Origin: Marinobacter sp. SS13-12
GTDB lineage: Bacteria; Pseudomonadota; Gammaproteobacteria; Pseudomonadales; Oleiphilaceae
Length of the DNA stretch: 64,000 bases
Direction: 5' to 3'
Assembly (NCBI RefSeq): GCF_030227115.1
Contig: NZ_JASSUA010000001.1
Span: forward strand, 930,001 to 994,000
In this document: piece by piece, positions 5,611-33,056 of the stretch
Numbering within the stretch: position 1 is the stretch's first letter
How the letters are laid out: each line of letters opens with the position of its first letter
Position numbers and translations under genes: made by a program
Notes under the pieces: generated by a model
Databases searched by the model: none
What the model saw: only the letters and a program-made list of their open reading frames with translations
What the model was told of the DNA's origin: nothing

Positions 5611-8600
5611 ATGGTGTTCCAGACCCTGGATGGCAATGAAGCCGTGGCCTCAGTGGCCTATCGATTGAGTGAAACCATTGCCATCTACCCGATTACCCCG
5701 GCGTCGGTGATGGGTGAGCACGCGGATGACTGGGCTGCCCAGGGCAAGCCCAATCTCTGGGGCCAGGTGCCGGGCGTGGTGGAAATGCAGTCCGAAGCCG
5801 GTGCGGCCGGGGCCATGCATGGTGCACTGCAGTCGGGTTCGCTGGTGACCACGTTTACCGCCTCCCAGGGGCTGCTGTTGATGCTGCCCAACCTGTTCAA
5901 GATCGCCGGCGAGCTCTCGCCGTTCTGCATGCACGTTGCTGCCCGCAGTGTGGCCACTCATGCCTTGTCTATTTTCTGTGACCACTCCGATGTAATGAGC
6001 GCCCGGGGTACCGGCTTTGCCCTGCTGGCCTCGGGCTCGGTGCAGGAAGCCCAGGACCTCGCCGCCATAGGCCATGCGGTGACCCTGGAAAGCCGGATAC
6101 CGGTCATGCACTTCTTCGATGGCTTCCGCACTTCCCACGAAATCGACAAGATTGTGGCGCTGAGCGACGAGGACTTGCAGGCACTGGTGTCCCACGATGG
6201 GGTGGAAGCACACCGTAACCGCAGGATGACGCCTGACCGGCCGGTGATAAGGGGCACTTCCCAGAACCCGGATGCCTTCTTCCAGTCCCGGGAAGCCACC
6301 AATCCATTTTATCAGGCGTTTCCGGAGCGATTGGAAGCCGTCATGGCGCGGTTTGGCGATATCACCGGGCGCCAGTACCAGCTGTTCGATTACGTCGGCC
6401 ATCCGGAAGCCGAGCGAGTGGTTATTCTGATGGGTTCGGGCGCTGAGTGCGCCCATGAAACCGTGGAATGGCTGATGGAGCAGGGGCAAAAGGTCGGCGT
6501 CCTCAAGGTGCGCCTGTTCCGGCCCTTCGCAGGTGACCGCTTCCTGCAAGCGCTGCCGGATACCGTGAAACACCTGGCGGTGCTGGACCGGACCAAGGAG
6601 CCCGGAGCCCAGGGTGAGCCGCTATTGCTGGAAGTCAGCGGCGCACTGATGGAGGCTTATAGCAGGGGCGACCGGCAAGTGTTGCCCCGGGTGATCGGCG
6701 GGCGCTACGGCTTGTCCTCCCGGGAGTTCACCCCGGCCATGGTCTGTGCGGTCTTTGACCAGTTAGACGAGCCGTCACCGAAAACCCGCTTTACCGTCGG
6801 GGTTCGCGATGATGTGACGCACCTGTCACTGGACGTCAACAGCGAACTGGATATCGAATCACCGAAAACCCGCAGGGCGCTGTTCTTTGGTCTCGGCGCC
6901 GACGGTACGGTCAGCAGCAACAAATCCAGCATCAAGATCCTCGGCGAGGGCACGGACCTGTTTGCCCAGGGCCATTTTGTCTACGATTCCAAAAAATCCG
7001 GCGCCACCACCGTATCGCATTTGCGCTTCGGCCCACTGCCGATCCGCTCCAGTTACCAGATTCGCCAGGCCCAGTTTGTAGCCGTCCATGCGCCACAGTT
7101 CCTGGAACGGTTTGATGTTCTGGAACATGCGGCCCCGGGCGCCACGGTGTTGCTCAACGTACCCTGGCCACCGGATCAGGTATGGGACCGGTTATCCGTG
7201 GAAGCCCAGCGGGTATTGGTCGAGCGCAAGGCCCACCTGTTTGTGATTGATGCCGCCGAGGTGGCAGAGAGGGCCGGTCTGGAGCGACGTATCAACACCG
7301 TCATGCAGGTGTGTTTCTTCGCCCTGGCTGACATCCTGCCCCGTGACGAGGCCATTGCCCACATCAAGGAGTCAATACGCCAGACCTGGGGCCGTCGCGG
7401 GCCGGAGGTAGTTCGCCGCAATGTGGAGGCGGTGGATTCCGCCCTGGCGAACCTGCACGAAGTGACGGTGCCGGGCGAGGTAACGGCGACCCGTAGTCGT
7501 CCGCCAAGAGTCCCTGAGGACGCGCCGGACTTCGTCCAGAAGGTCACCCGCCTGCTGATGGACGGCCAGGGTGAAAAGCTTCCAGTCAGCGCCTTTCCGC
7601 CGGACGGTACCTGGCCCACCGGCACCAGCCAGTATGAAAAGCGAAGTATCGCCCTGGAAATCCCGATCTGGGAATCTGACCTTTGCGTGCAGTGCAACTT
7701 CTGCGCAATGATCTGCCCACATACTGCGATTACCAGCAAGGTCTTCGAACCGGAAGCGGCCAAGGGGGCCCCGGATACCTTCGAGGCGGTACCCGAAACC
7801 CACACCCGGGAACTGGAAGGGCTGGATTACCGGATTCAGGTGGCGCCGGAAGACTGCACCGGTTGCGGTTTGTGTGTGGAGGTGTGCCCCGCCAAGGACC
7901 GCAGCCAGCCCAAGCGCAAGGCGATCAACATGAGGCCACTGGAGGAACATCGGGAAGTGGAGGCGGAGAATCTGGCGTTCCTGCGTAGCTTGCCGGATGT
8001 GCCCCGGGACCGCATTCCCCGGGACTTCAAGTCGCTGCCGCTGCTGATTCCCCTGTTCGAGTATTCCGGCGCCTGCGCCGGCTGTGGCGAGACGCCTTAC
8101 ATTCGGCTGCTCACCCAGTTACTGGGGGACCGGCTGCTGATTGCCAATGCCACCGGCTGTTCCTCCATCTATGGCGGCAACCTCCCCACTACGCCTTACA
8201 CGGTGAATGCAGATGGGCGAGGGCCGACCTGGAACAACTCGCTGTTTGAAGACGCTGCTGAACTGGGTCTGGGCATGCGGATGGGGCTGAACAAACTGGT
8301 GGGCCGGGCCCGGCAGTTGTTGGAGGACATGAAAGATAAGCTTCCTCCGGAGCTATACCTCGATCTGACCAGCCCCTGTGCGACCCTGGATGAGACGGCC
8401 ATGATGACAAGGCGTCAGGCGGTGGAACGGCTGCGTGACTGGCTGTCGGACCAGCAAGGACCCGAAGCGCGGGAGCTGGCCAGCCTGGCCGATGAGCTGT
8501 GCCCCAAGAGCGTGTGGGTGATTGGCGGTGACGGCTGGGCCTATGACATCGGCTATGGCGGCCTGGACCATGCCCTGGCCTCGGGCCAGAACATAAAACT

Positions 8601-21900: not shown

Positions 21901-22034
21901 GACGGGGACTGGTTCGTGCTGAAAATGAGGCAGCAGTATAACGGACGTGACGGTTTTTTGCTCGCCGGCAGATGCCGGTCACCCTTGCTGCCGTTACAAT
22001 GCATCCCTTGCCAGACCCGTACTCCGGAGTAGCC

Positions 22035-22700
22035 ATGACCCCCGACATTCTGAACCAGCACCTCGCGAAAACTCTCAGCCGTGGGCGGGTGGCGGCCACT
22101 GCACCGGCGGGCTGCCCTGACATTTCCCTGTATCTGTTCGATCCTTCAGTCCTGGAGGGACCGATCAGCCATGCCGAAGCCCAGGCCGTGGTGGCGGAGC
22201 CAGCGTATTGGTCATTCTGCTGGGCCAGCGGGCAGGTGCTTGCGGCTTATATCCTGGCCAACCCTCACCTGGTGAAGGGCGAGACGGTACTGGATTTTGG
22301 TTCCGGGTCGGGCATTGTTGCCATTGCCGCTGCTATGGCCGGGGCGCGGGAGGCCATTGCCTGTGACATCGACCCGGCCGCGCTGGATGCTGCCGGAGCC
22401 AATGCCAGGCTGAACGGCGTGACGGTGTCTTTGTGTGATGACTGGAGCACACGGCCAGATAATGTGGGCGTTGTGACGGCAGCGGATGTGCTGTACGACC
22501 CCGATAATCGGCCCTTGTTGTCGGTGTTCAGGCTGGCTGCACCACGGGTGTTGCTGGCGGACTCAAGGATGAGGGATCTGGGAGATGATCGTTACCGGCA
22601 GCAAGTGGTCATTGAGGCCCGCACCTGGCCAGACCTGCACGAGTTCGAGGAGTTCAACCGGGTACGGATCTATCGGGCGGGAGAGGGGCGGGCCGGATAG
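22035..22700 (+). CDS. Class I SAM-dependent methyltransferase (ETFB/nicotinamide N-methyltransferase-like)
   Basis: A 221-aa Rossmann methyltransferase. SAM-binding motif I is VLDFGSGSGIVAIAAA (about 90-105), with an acidic post-I residue in ACDIDPAALDAAGAN and ADVLYD as motif II. The N-terminal EPAYWSFCWASGQVLA is typical of the protein-lysine methyltransferase group related to METTL20 (ETF-beta), a possible substrate. The start is the ATG with CGGAG seven bases upstream. Downstream it shares a bidirectional terminator with the CsrB-type RNA. Confidence 0.75.
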   Translation: MTPDILNQHLAKTLSRGRVAATAPAGCPDISLYLFDPSVLEGPISHAEAQAVVAEPAYWSFCWASGQVLAAYILANPHLVKGETVLDFGSGSGIVAIAAAMAGAREAIACDIDPAALDAAGANARLNGVTVSLCDDWSTRPDNVGVVTAADVLYDPDNRPLLSVFRLAAPRVLLADSRMRDLGDDRYRQQVVIEARTWPDLHEFEEFNRVRIYRAGEGRAG

Positions 22701-22706
22701 ATAAAC

Positions 22707-22740
22707 AAAAAAAAAGGGCAGCCTCTCGGCTACCCTTTTT
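22707..22740. terminator. Bidirectional Rho-independent terminator
   Basis: A GC-rich stem around the loop CTCT (plus strand) has five T on one side and nine A on the other. It ends the CsrB-type RNA on the minus strand and probably also the methyltransferase transcript arriving from the plus strand. Confidence 0.85.
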
Positions 22741-22937
22741 CGGAACAGATGTCGCATCCTTGCGCTGTTGGCAACCATCCCGTTGCCGTTTTCCCTTGTC
22801 ATTCCCTTGTGCCAGCGTCCGAGCCAGCGATCCGATTAGTTGTCCCTTAAGCGAGGCGTCCCTGTGTCCTTGCCTCTCCCTGCATCCAGTTGCCGGGGTG
22901 CATCCAGTGCGTCGTCCTTTTCCCTGTCATCCTTGAT
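22707..22937 (-). ncRNA. csrB: CsrB-family regulatory RNA (CsrA/RsmA sponge)
   Basis: The minus strand of this gap reads as a roughly 230-nt RNA with 15 GGA motifs, mostly as AAGGA, CAGGGA, AAGGGA or CTGGATG. Some sit in small hairpins, for example CGCAAGGATGCG. It ends in a classical terminator: GGGTAGCC, GAGA, GGCTGCCC, then nine T. A TATAGT -10 hexamer lies at 22944-22949, giving a start near 22937. Repeated GGA in loops is the hallmark of CsrB/CsrC/RsmZ RNAs, which titrate the translational repressor CsrA. The gene sits between the methyltransferase and a VanZ-like gene. No credible protein is encoded on either strand. The exact 5' end is an estimate. Confidence 0.88.
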
Positions 22938-22943
22938 GTGATC

Positions 22944-22949
22944 ACTATA
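22944..22949 (-). promoter_or_regulatory. -10 hexamer of the CsrB-type RNA promoter
   Basis: Reading on the minus strand, TATAGT is preceded by a poor -35 (GTGTTT at about 16 bases spacing). A weak -35 fits a promoter that depends on an activator such as GacA/UvrY. Confidence 0.55.
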
Positions 22950-23105
22950 GCAATTGAAATCTTACAAACACGTGAATTATGCACCCCTTTAAAGTTACGA
23001 TCTCTTTAATTGTTCAATAAGTAACTGAAAATCAATAACTTGACATTTCTTACGCGAGAGCTGCTCGGTAAGCGTACGTAACAGAGAAGCGAGATCTCAC
23101 GCTCT

Positions 23106-23123
23106 TGTAGGATATATCTCACA
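23106..23123 (-). promoter_or_regulatory. GacA/UvrY-type upstream activating site
   Basis: The 18-base imperfect palindrome TGTAGG-N6-CTCACA closely fits the known GacA/UvrY box TGTAAG-N6-CTTACA that controls csrB/rsmZ RNAs. It lies about 170 bases upstream of the predicted RNA start, the range seen for csrB promoters. It overlaps the last codons of the VanZ-like gene. A half site, TGTAAG, lies closer to the promoter near 22960-22965. Confidence 0.65.
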
Positions 23124-23541
23124 AGCGACCAGGCTCTTCTCTCACATCTGTTTTCTTGCGCGATGGTTTGGCTCGCCGTCTGATGAAATCCGGGCAGGGC
23201 AGCAGCCCGACGGCAATGCCCGCGGCATCGGCCACAATGTCGGCAACGGCGAAGGTGCGATAGGGCAACTGGGCTTGCACGATTTCAATCGACGCACCAA
23301 AGGCGATCAGGCCAGAGGCAATCCAGAGCCGGCTGAGCCCGGGCCAGGCCAGGCGTGTCACAATCGTCAATTGCAGGAAGGCCAGCACATGATTCAGCTT
23401 GTCGTTATCGGACGAAGGCACCGGGTAGGGCTCGCTTGTGGTTGCGAGATAGAGAATGGCTGTCGCGGATATCACCAGCATTGCCCGCCAGAACGGCTGA
23501 TAATCAAGCAGAAAACGAATGCGCTGTGTCAGAAATGCCAT
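23119..23541 (-). CDS. VanZ-like membrane protein
   Basis: A 140-aa protein with about four hydrophobic segments. The pattern SSDNDKLNHVLAFLQLT (Asp and His in a KxxHxxAF-like context) and the later AVADIVADAAGIAVGLL (DxxxNxxG-like) are typical of the VanZ-like family. Function in this family is poorly defined. The C terminus is basic and charged. The ATG was preferred to a GTG two codons upstream. Confidence 0.68.
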   Translation of the reverse strand: MAFLTQRIRFLLDYQPFWRAMLVISATAILYLATTSEPYPVPSSDNDKLNHVLAFLQLTIVTRLAWPGLSRLWIASGLIAFGASIEIVQAQLPYRTFAVADIVADAAGIAVGLLPCPDFIRRRAKPSRKKTDVREEPGRL

Positions 23542-23625
23542 GTACACCGTCGGGCTGTGGTGGAGTTTGCAACATGATATGCTTTGCGCCCCGTCACTGT
23601 CATTGAAGCTGAGGTGCTGCGAGGT

Positions 23626-31544: not shown

Positions 31545-33056
31545 TTATTTGGCAGTCGGCATGACAAATTCTGCGCCGGCGTCAATGGAGTCGGACCAGC
31601 GTTGCATGATGGATTTCTGGCGTGTGTAGAACTTCACGCCTTCTTCACCATAGGCGTGGGTATCGCCGAACAGCGAGCGCTTCCAGCCACCGAAACCGTG
31701 CCAGGCCATGGGAACCGGAATCGGAACGTTAATGCCCACCATGCCCACCTGGATGCGACGGCCGAATTCCCGGGCCACGGTGCCGCTTTCGGTGAAGCAG
31801 CTGACGCCGTTGCCGAATTCATGGTCGTTGATCAGTCGGATGGCGGTGGCGATATCCGGAACCCGCACACAGGCCAGTACCGGGCCAAAAATCTCTTCCC
31901 GGTAAATGGTCATCTCCGGGGTTACGTGATCGAACAGCGAGCCGCCCATCCAGAAACCGTCTTCACAGCCTTCGCCGGTGCCTGAGGCGTCAAACTCACG
32001 GCCATCAACCACCAGTTCAGCACCCTCGGCCACACCCTTGTCAATGTAGCCGGTAATGCGCTGATGTGCGGCGGCCGTGACGATGGGGCCCATCTCGGCG
32101 TCGAGCTGCTCGCCGTTTTTCACTTTCAGTGTGCGGGCCCGTTCAGCCAACTGCGGCATGATCTTGTCGGCCACATCGCCAACCAGCACAGCCACGCTGA
32201 TGGCCATGCAGCGCTCACCGGCACTGCCGTAGGCAGCGCCGATCAGGGCGTCTACTGCCTTGTCCAGGTCAGCGTCGGGCATCACCACCATGTGGTTCTT
32301 GGCGCCACCAAGGGCCTGGATACGCTTGCCGTGTTTCGCGCCTTTCTCGTAGAGAAGGTTGGCTATCGGGGTGGAGCCAACAAAGCTCAGCGCCTGAACA
32401 TTGGGGTGCTCGATCAGTGCTTCTACCGCTTCCTTGTCGCCCTGGACAACGTTAAACACGCCGTCGGGCAGCCCCGCCTGGCGGAGCAGGTCGGCAATCA
32501 TCAGTGAGGCGCTGGGGTCCAGCGGGCTCGGCTTCAGTACAAAGGTGTTGCCCGCCGCGATGGCGACCGGAAACATCCACATGGGCACCATGACCGGGAA
32601 GTTGAACGGCGTGACCCCGGCCACCACGCCCAAGGGCTGCCGCATGGTCCAGTTGTCGATGCCGGTGCTGACCTGCTCGGTGTAATCCCCTTTCAGCAAC
32701 TGAGGAATGCCGCAGGCGAATTCCACGATGTCGATGCCGCGGGCTACTTCGCCCTGGGCATCGGTGAAGACCTTGCCATGCTCGGCAGTGATGGCCCGGG
32801 CCAGGTCATCCTTGTGCCGGTTCAGCAGTTCCAGGAATTTGAACATCACCCGTGCGCGGCGGATCGGCGGGGTATCGGCCCACGCCGGGAAGGCCGCATC
32901 GGCCGCCGCGACGGCGGCATCCACATCCGCACGATTGGCAAGGGCAACCTGACCGGTGATCTGGCCAGTGGCCGGATTGGACACGTCCTGGGACTGGCTG
33001 GACGTGCCTGCAGATATTTCGCCATTGATATAATGTTGGATGGTTGCCGTGGTCAT
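31545..33056 (-). CDS. mmsA: CoA-acylating methylmalonate-semialdehyde dehydrogenase
   Basis: A 503-aa aldehyde dehydrogenase of the MmsA type. It has the family block [15 protein letters not shown], the nucleophile Cys in GERCMA, and the C-terminal [16 protein letters not shown]. MmsA converts methylmalonate or malonate semialdehyde with CoA and NAD to propionyl-CoA or acetyl-CoA in valine, inositol or beta-alanine degradation. It heads a two-gene operon with the GMC oxidoreductase and is divergent from a LysR regulator, the likely controller. Confidence 0.92.

Follow-up and report, generated by a model that had tools for sequence, protein, structure and literature searches.

A probable CsrB/RsmZ-type RNA gene with a distal GacA box in Marinobacter and its relatives

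The RNA locus and its promoter

The window, a 64-kb stretch of the Marinobacter sp. SS13-12 genome corresponding to G000:C1:930001–994000, includes a noncoding stretch of the minus strand lying between an ORF for a VanZ-family protein and a convergent methyltransferase-like ORF. The VanZ-family gene (23119..23547, minus strand; 22 bits against a cut-off of 20) forms the upstream flank and the putative methyltransferase gene (21972..22700, plus strand; below every NCBIfam cut-off) the convergent flank, and neither is part of the RNA. A candidate CsrB/RsmZ-type small RNA of approximately 230 nt occupies 22708..22938 on the minus strand, with a 5′ end predicted from the position of the −10 hexamer. 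The initial annotation had described 15 GGA motifs in about 180 nt of the minus strand, a clean intrinsic terminator, a TATAGT −10 and an 18-bp box about 170 bases upstream, and all of these were recovered. The region 22940–22707 (minus strand) contains exactly 15 GGA, spanning 22932 to 22757 and all within its first 185 nt, and ten of them are in an ANGGA context. The terminator (22710..22741, minus strand) is made up of a 14-bp stem followed by a T run.

The abundance of these motifs was compared with dinucleotide shuffles of the 199 nt preceding the terminator. The 15 GGA observed compare with 8.6 ± 1.9 in the shuffled sequences, 15 or more being reached in 7 of 5000, while the ten ANGGA compare with 2.5 expected and were equalled in none of the 5000. 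When 200-nt segments covering the whole 64 kb were counted, the RNA locus was the richest in GGA on the minus strand (15, with a runner-up of 10), and the plus-strand maximum was 13, at 7768.

A promoter scan at the RNA locus found no −35/−10 pair. The predicted promoter is an extended −10, TGC-TATAGT (22944..22952, minus strand), with the hexamer at 22949–22944. The GacA/UvrY box TGTGAGATATATCCTACA (23106..23123, minus strand) has one mismatch to TGTRAG-N6-CTTACA, and its first base is 174 nt from the −10 hexamer. This box overlaps the 3′ end of the VanZ-family ORF, which has its stop at 23119. A weak second box-like copy, CGTGAGATCTCGCTTCTC, is found 4 bp downstream of the box (23084..23101, minus strand); it is the second-best match, with four mismatches, and varies among relatives. 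Between the box and the promoter there is an IHF-like site, CAAGTTATTGATT (23030..23042, minus strand), with no mismatches to YAAN4TTGATW; it begins 93 nt before the −10 hexamer. The conserved IHF-like site and the TGN ahead of the −10 are additional to the features in the initial annotation, as is a candidate second Csr-type RNA with a GacA box at another place in the genome (described below).

The arrangement was examined in the relatives described below, with the window included in each count. The −10 hexamer reads TATAGT in 67 of 79 sequences, and TGN precedes the −10 in 70 of the 79. Enough upstream DNA to examine the promoter geometry was available for 78 sequences, and 76 of these have a GacA-type box with three or fewer mismatches at −178 to −173 from the −10 hexamer (two or fewer in 72, one or none in 48). 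An IHF-like sequence with no more than one mismatch was found at −98 to −92 in 47 of the 78, compared with 0–1 in each of 17 control windows, and allowing two mismatches raised this to 72, compared with 0–11 in the controls. Scoring against letter-shuffled DNA was performed on 63 sequences, as a strict anchor left out 16 of the 79; a box with two or fewer mismatches was present in 61 of the 63 real upstream regions and in approximately 1.5% of the shuffled ones. The best box lay off the main position in three of the 63 (at −187, −185 and −153). Fifteen of the 16 were re-examined separately and each has a box at −174 or −175 with three or fewer mismatches, the sixteenth (L041) being excluded because its contig is too short. 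In a sequence from another genus of the family (L132), the box is found exactly at −174 and the best IHF-like sequences have two mismatches. Genome-wide, TGTRRGN6CYTACA and its backwards control have two matches each, so the box pattern by itself is weak evidence; it is the fixed position across species that makes the box convincing.

Distribution and structure of the RNA

Relatives were sought at loci of the neighbouring gene mnmH, taking the best 80 of 208 (79 from Marinobacter and one from a metagenome assembly labelled Halomonas). A BLASTN search with 22690–23160 placed the element upstream of mnmH and co-oriented with it in 78 of these 80. The two loci lacking it near mnmH were L085, where the contig ends early, and L104, from M. 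xestospongiae, and in both of these genomes the RNA is present at another position. All 79 aligned sequences (window included) contain 12–17 GGA and 8–12 ANGGA.

From 59 non-redundant sequences, 47, including the window, were used for the main alignment (A1). Of the 15 GGA in the window's RNA, 12 keep their alignment columns in 41 or more of the 47 rows, and the other three do not. Identity to the window averages 90% in GGA columns and 75% in the other columns of the body. The 12 sequences left out of A1, which comprise a clade with a 3′ insertion together with outliers, were aligned separately (A2). In this Marinobacter clade (e.g. L067:2946–3216 and L091:2942–3212), an extra hairpin-like insert containing another GGA precedes the terminator, possibly representing the gain of a CsrA site.

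A covariance model (R1) was built from the 47 A1 sequences. Within the family, R1 matched 153 of 163 genomes, in 14 of 16 genera, at E ≤0.001; the ten genomes missed are three in the genus and seven in two other genera. The matches in G313, G403 and G418, also in the genus, cover part of the model only. When 293 genomes drawn from the order were searched, 15 were matched; 13 of these belong to the family, and the two from outside it gave weak matches. One of the weak matches outside the family (L133, in G273) was rejected as it has no more than one ANGGA per 200 nt. In another genome, an additional BLAST hit (L029) was also set aside, as by eye it appears to be part of a coding frame.

The structure obtained with RNAalifold mixed in long-range pairs, and local hairpins were then named by hand, so the choice of helices leans on the A1 alignment. 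The drawn structure comprises seven local hairpins plus the terminator. Across the 47 sequences, 92.5% of cells are paired in this structure, compared with 29–45% when the partners are slid by 1–3 columns. Cells changed on both sides of a pair number 54, compared with 15–28 in the slid versions and 14.9 ± 4.4 after shuffling. When pairs with any double change are counted instead, the drawn structure has 18, compared with 6.7 ± 1.7 after shuffling, and by this measure it barely exceeds the versions slid by +2 and +3, which have 17 and 16, respectively. Folding of the single sequence gave z = −2.58, and eight of the 15 GGA are fully unpaired in the minimum-energy fold of the window's RNA.

Hairpins 3, 5 and 6 and the terminator are well supported. 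Hairpin 3 (22878..22897, minus strand; CCC-GC stem, loop GGA at 22887) has 98.3% of cells paired, three of five pairs changed on both sides, and all five pairs in the window's minimum-energy fold. Hairpin 5 (22811..22828, minus strand; GCUGGC-UCGGAC-GCUGGC), which also has a GGA in the loop, has 99.3% of cells paired, three of six pairs changed on both sides and all six in the fold. Hairpin 6 (22770..22787, minus strand; GGCAAC-GGGAUG-GUUGCC) has 89.9% of cells paired, with three of six pairs changed on both sides, and is fully formed in the fold; its loop GGA is kept in few relatives, being in the same columns in ten of the 47 rows. In the terminator (helix 8), seven of nine pairs are changed on both sides, and it too is fully formed in the fold.

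Hairpins 1, 2, 4 and 7 are weakly supported: double changes are scarce or absent in them, and the window's minimum-energy fold contains none of their pairs, which have probabilities of 0–0.13. They are therefore treated as tentative. Hairpin 1 (22926..22937, minus strand; AUCA-AGGA-UGAC) has 87.7% of cells paired and no double changes, and in the window's own fold none of its four pairs forms and its GGA is paired otherwise. Hairpin 7 (22753..22765, minus strand; GCGCA-AGGA-UGCG) has 85.6% of cells paired, with double changes in one of four pairs, none of which is in the fold (pair probability 0.10–0.13). If formed, these two hairpins would present AGGA as a four-base loop, near the SELEX consensus RUACARGGAUGU quoted in PMC7652899.

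Classification, partner genes and alternative explanations

No Rfam family was matched at the gathering threshold anywhere in the 64-kb window. The initial annotation had proposed a match above threshold to the Rfam CsrB, CsrC, RsmY or RsmZ models as a check, and none was obtained; the best match at the locus under an E-value threshold was to CsrC (RF00084), with 23.2 bits (E 5.8e-5) against a gathering score of 61 bits. The CsrB model had no match listed at the RNA locus in the E-value search, and PrrB_RsmZ, searched against the whole genome with E up to 10, had none there. The RNA therefore falls outside the present Rfam families CsrB, CsrC, RsmY and PrrB_RsmZ. This refutes family membership and not function, because R1 finds the RNA in 153 of the 163 genomes of the family. 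R1 thus covers an RNA that is unrecognised by Rfam and widespread in one family.

The genes needed for a Gac/Csr circuit appear to be present. A single CsrA is encoded in the genome (92.6 bits, cut-off 27), and a search with 64 of its residues, starting at residue 2, matched nine CsrA-type sequences of solved structure. One of these is 2JPP, the complex with RNA that is shown in PMC7652899. Two RNA-binding residues that this paper names, L4 and R44, are both present, by our own count on the translation. The gene for GacA (302.9 bits against the NCBIfam UvrY/SirA/GacA cut-off of 280) lies directly before uvrC. One nearly full-length BarA-like kinase, with 843 bits under a curated cut-off of 890, is probably GacS/BarA.

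The initial annotation held that the combination of GGA motifs, terminator, −10 and box defines the CsrB/RsmZ class, and this was too strong, as these features alone are insufficient to define it. The reading itself is supported by the conservation of the GGA, by compensatory change in three hairpins and the terminator, by the fixed promoter geometry and by the csrA, gacA and gacS-like genes. The properties used to recognise the class can be set beside the locus in turn. It has multiple conserved GGA and ANGGA motifs in a noncoding RNA. At the level of sequence it has its own transcription unit, with a conserved −10 and a terminator. A GacA/UvrY box is fixed relative to the promoter (76 of 78), and csrA, gacA and gacS/barA are found in the genome, the last as the BarA-like kinase under its cut-off. 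For the placing of GGA in loops or single strands the picture is mixed: the supported hairpins 3, 5 and 6 have a loop GGA, and the window's fold leaves eight of the 15 GGA unpaired, but hairpins 1, 2, 4 and 7 are absent from that fold. Comparison shows a conserved noncoding RNA with conserved GGA, some supported hairpins and a fixed box, IHF-like site and −10, and it very probably belongs to the CsrB/RsmZ functional class, acting as a CsrA sponge under GacS/GacA. Transcription, the binding of GacA and IHF, CsrA binding, sequestration and downstream phenotypes are what we infer from these features.

According to the mechanism proposed, phosphorylated GacA (UvrY) would bind the 18-bp box approximately 178 bp upstream of the start, IHF would probably bend the DNA linking box and promoter, and RNA polymerase would start from the extended −10. 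The resulting RNA of about 230 nt would show around a dozen conserved GGA, some of them carried in hairpin loops and many left unpaired. Via these motifs it could bind several CsrA dimers and so remove CsrA from its target mRNAs.

Three other explanations were considered. One is a small RNA under GacA control that works chiefly through base-pairing with mRNAs, in the manner of Hfq-dependent RNAs, and in which the GGA are incidental; it would also be built like a terminated sRNA in general, as this one is. The 12–17 GGA in all 79 sequences and the higher identity in GGA columns (90% vs 75% in the rest of the body) fit binding of a protein to the GGA and argue against base-pairing as the main activity, which we regard as unlikely. 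The VanZ-family ORF is co-directional with the RNA and ends at 23119, as would be expected if the RNA had no gene of its own and were a processed 3′ UTR of the VanZ-family gene or the leader of one further downstream. However, the RNA has its own conserved extended −10, it is separated from the VanZ-family gene by the fixed box and the IHF-like site, and its strong terminator is followed by a convergent gene. This origin is therefore very improbable.

The remaining explanation, a short coding gene using a 27-codon frame from GGAUGA near the 5′ end, draws on the ATG at that point, which is kept in 40 of the 47 sequences; however, that ATG belongs to the AGGAUG binding motif. The window's reading frame is kept in 12 of the 47 rows (window included) and left by 35, so neither the frame nor its length is conserved. 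Open frames can be found in 44 of the 47 rows if any frame is counted and conservation is ignored. Substitutions at codon positions 1, 2 and 3 number 45, 29 and 30 across the 47 rows, with no preference for position 3 and hence no coding bias. A coding reading was rejected on these grounds and is given almost no weight. A GacA-controlled CsrA sponge accordingly remains the preferred reading.

RNAs of the CsrB/RsmZ kind are already known, and this one is unannotated and lies outside the curated families. Among the literature matches listed there was no report of such an RNA in Marinobacter, though an earlier computational prediction is possible; the main text of the InvenireSRNA paper does not name Marinobacter. 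The biology is ordinary, yet the RNA is unannotated, conserved through a family and accompanied by a second unannotated RNA. It supplies a likely CsrA antagonist for a large genus of marine bacteria, in which the Gac/Csr circuit would be directly testable. In an oil-and-dispersant experiment, CsrA of a Marinobacter is reported to be up-regulated under the nutrient-amended treatment (PMC10516948).

Other candidates in the genome and comparison with known systems

A GacA box with one or no mismatch is found at seven places in the genome, including the one in the window (10 rows, compared with 25 for the backwards control). As the box alone proves nothing, each of the seven was read individually. 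Four had few ANGGA and were rejected, namely L119 (no more than four per 200 nt) and L149–L151 (no more than three). At L147:1101–1400 (minus strand; G000:C1, near 281186), a small Met/Asp-rich protein mimics a GGA cluster beside a box-like sequence, and the stretch is coding. Searches with the models gave no further candidates in this genome: R1 gave no good match besides the RNA locus itself, a weak one at C1:962374 (32374–32450 in the window, 17.2 bits, E 0.003) is without Csr features, and the best PrrB_RsmZ match in the whole genome (L031, 21.6 bits) has a box with three mismatches and no more than two ANGGA per 200 nt.

The remaining place, outside the window, carries a GacA-boxed, GGA-rich candidate for a second Csr-type RNA (L148:1220–1530, corresponding to G000:C1:1650887–1651197, minus strand). 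Its box, with one or no mismatch, is at C1:1651168–1651185, with the RNA on the minus strand. There are 13 GGA and ten ANGGA in 200 nt, and the RNA starts with CGTCAAGGATGA, as do many relatives of the first RNA. Rfam gave no Csr match for it. BLASTN matches at E ≤0.001, some of them partial, were found in 53 of the 61 Marinobacter genomes. In 28 of 30 loci fetched from these the box precedes the GTCAAGGA start by exactly 74 nt, and the other two gave 106, the anchor having matched elsewhere. The box in these 30 loci has zero to four mismatches, a TAGAAT-like −10 is found approximately 60 nt from it in nearly all, and there are 8 to 14 GGA in 190 nt. No evident intrinsic terminator was seen for this RNA, and a gene for a ComEA-type helix-hairpin-helix protein (comEA-like) lies downstream.

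It is thus probable that Marinobacter carries two or more Csr-type RNAs, which differ in promoter geometry. A more tentative proposal, which may well prove wrong, is that two divergent sponges answer to one GacA through different wiring. The first would be driven, as in csrB, by a distal box combined with an IHF-like site, and the second by a proximal box lying about 60 nt away from its −10. As no intrinsic terminator is evident for the second RNA and it lies in a possible 5′ leader of the comEA-like gene, it could serve as both sponge and mRNA leader. If true, this would tie Gac/Csr signalling to competence or DNA uptake.

GGA-rich stretches were also seen elsewhere in the order. In one genome (G149), L134:896–1300 contains 26 GGA and 17 ANGGA in approximately 400 nt and L134:1500–1650 is a second, short GGA-rich stretch, each ending, by eye, in a terminator. 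By eye these look like two adjacent Csr-like RNAs, and the Rfam match there is weak (RsmY, 27.3 of 57 bits). Csr-type RNAs have been described in other genera of marine gammaproteobacteria, namely CsrR2 of Alcanivorax, with six unpaired GGA, and Aln1a–c of Alteromonas (PMC9788540, PMC5864184), and the Marinobacter RNA would be of the same general type.

The RsmY, RsmZ and RsmX RNAs of Pseudomonas share with the Marinobacter RNA a GacA box and GGA loops, the latter as predicted here. RsmY and RsmZ of P. fluorescens SS101 are 118 and 133 nt long with eight GGA each (PMC4353343), whereas the Marinobacter RNA has approximately twice the length and twice the number of GGA. CsrC (RF00084) is the best Rfam match and covers the 3′ half of the RNA, but the score is far under the 61-bit gathering score and a large internal part of the model is unmatched.

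E. coli CsrB is 369 nt long. At about 230 nt the Marinobacter RNA is shorter, and it differs further in having an extended −10. Like csrB of E. coli and Salmonella, it has many GGA, an 18-bp UvrY repeat about 180 bp upstream and a putative IHF site between the box and the promoter. In E. coli csrB, the UvrY repeat TGTGAGAGATCTCTTACA has its centre at −183/−182 relative to the start, a putative IHF site separates it from the promoter, and a partly conserved TGTAGGAGA is reported to follow the box after 5 bp; chromatin and footprint work found IHF to be required for full UvrY binding and expression (PMC4682653). The centre of the Marinobacter box is at approximately −178 from the predicted start, assuming about 12 nt from the beginning of the hexamer to the start of transcription. 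The predicted promoter geometry is of the same design as that of E. coli csrB, and this shared geometry suggests that the distal box with an IHF site is an old design.
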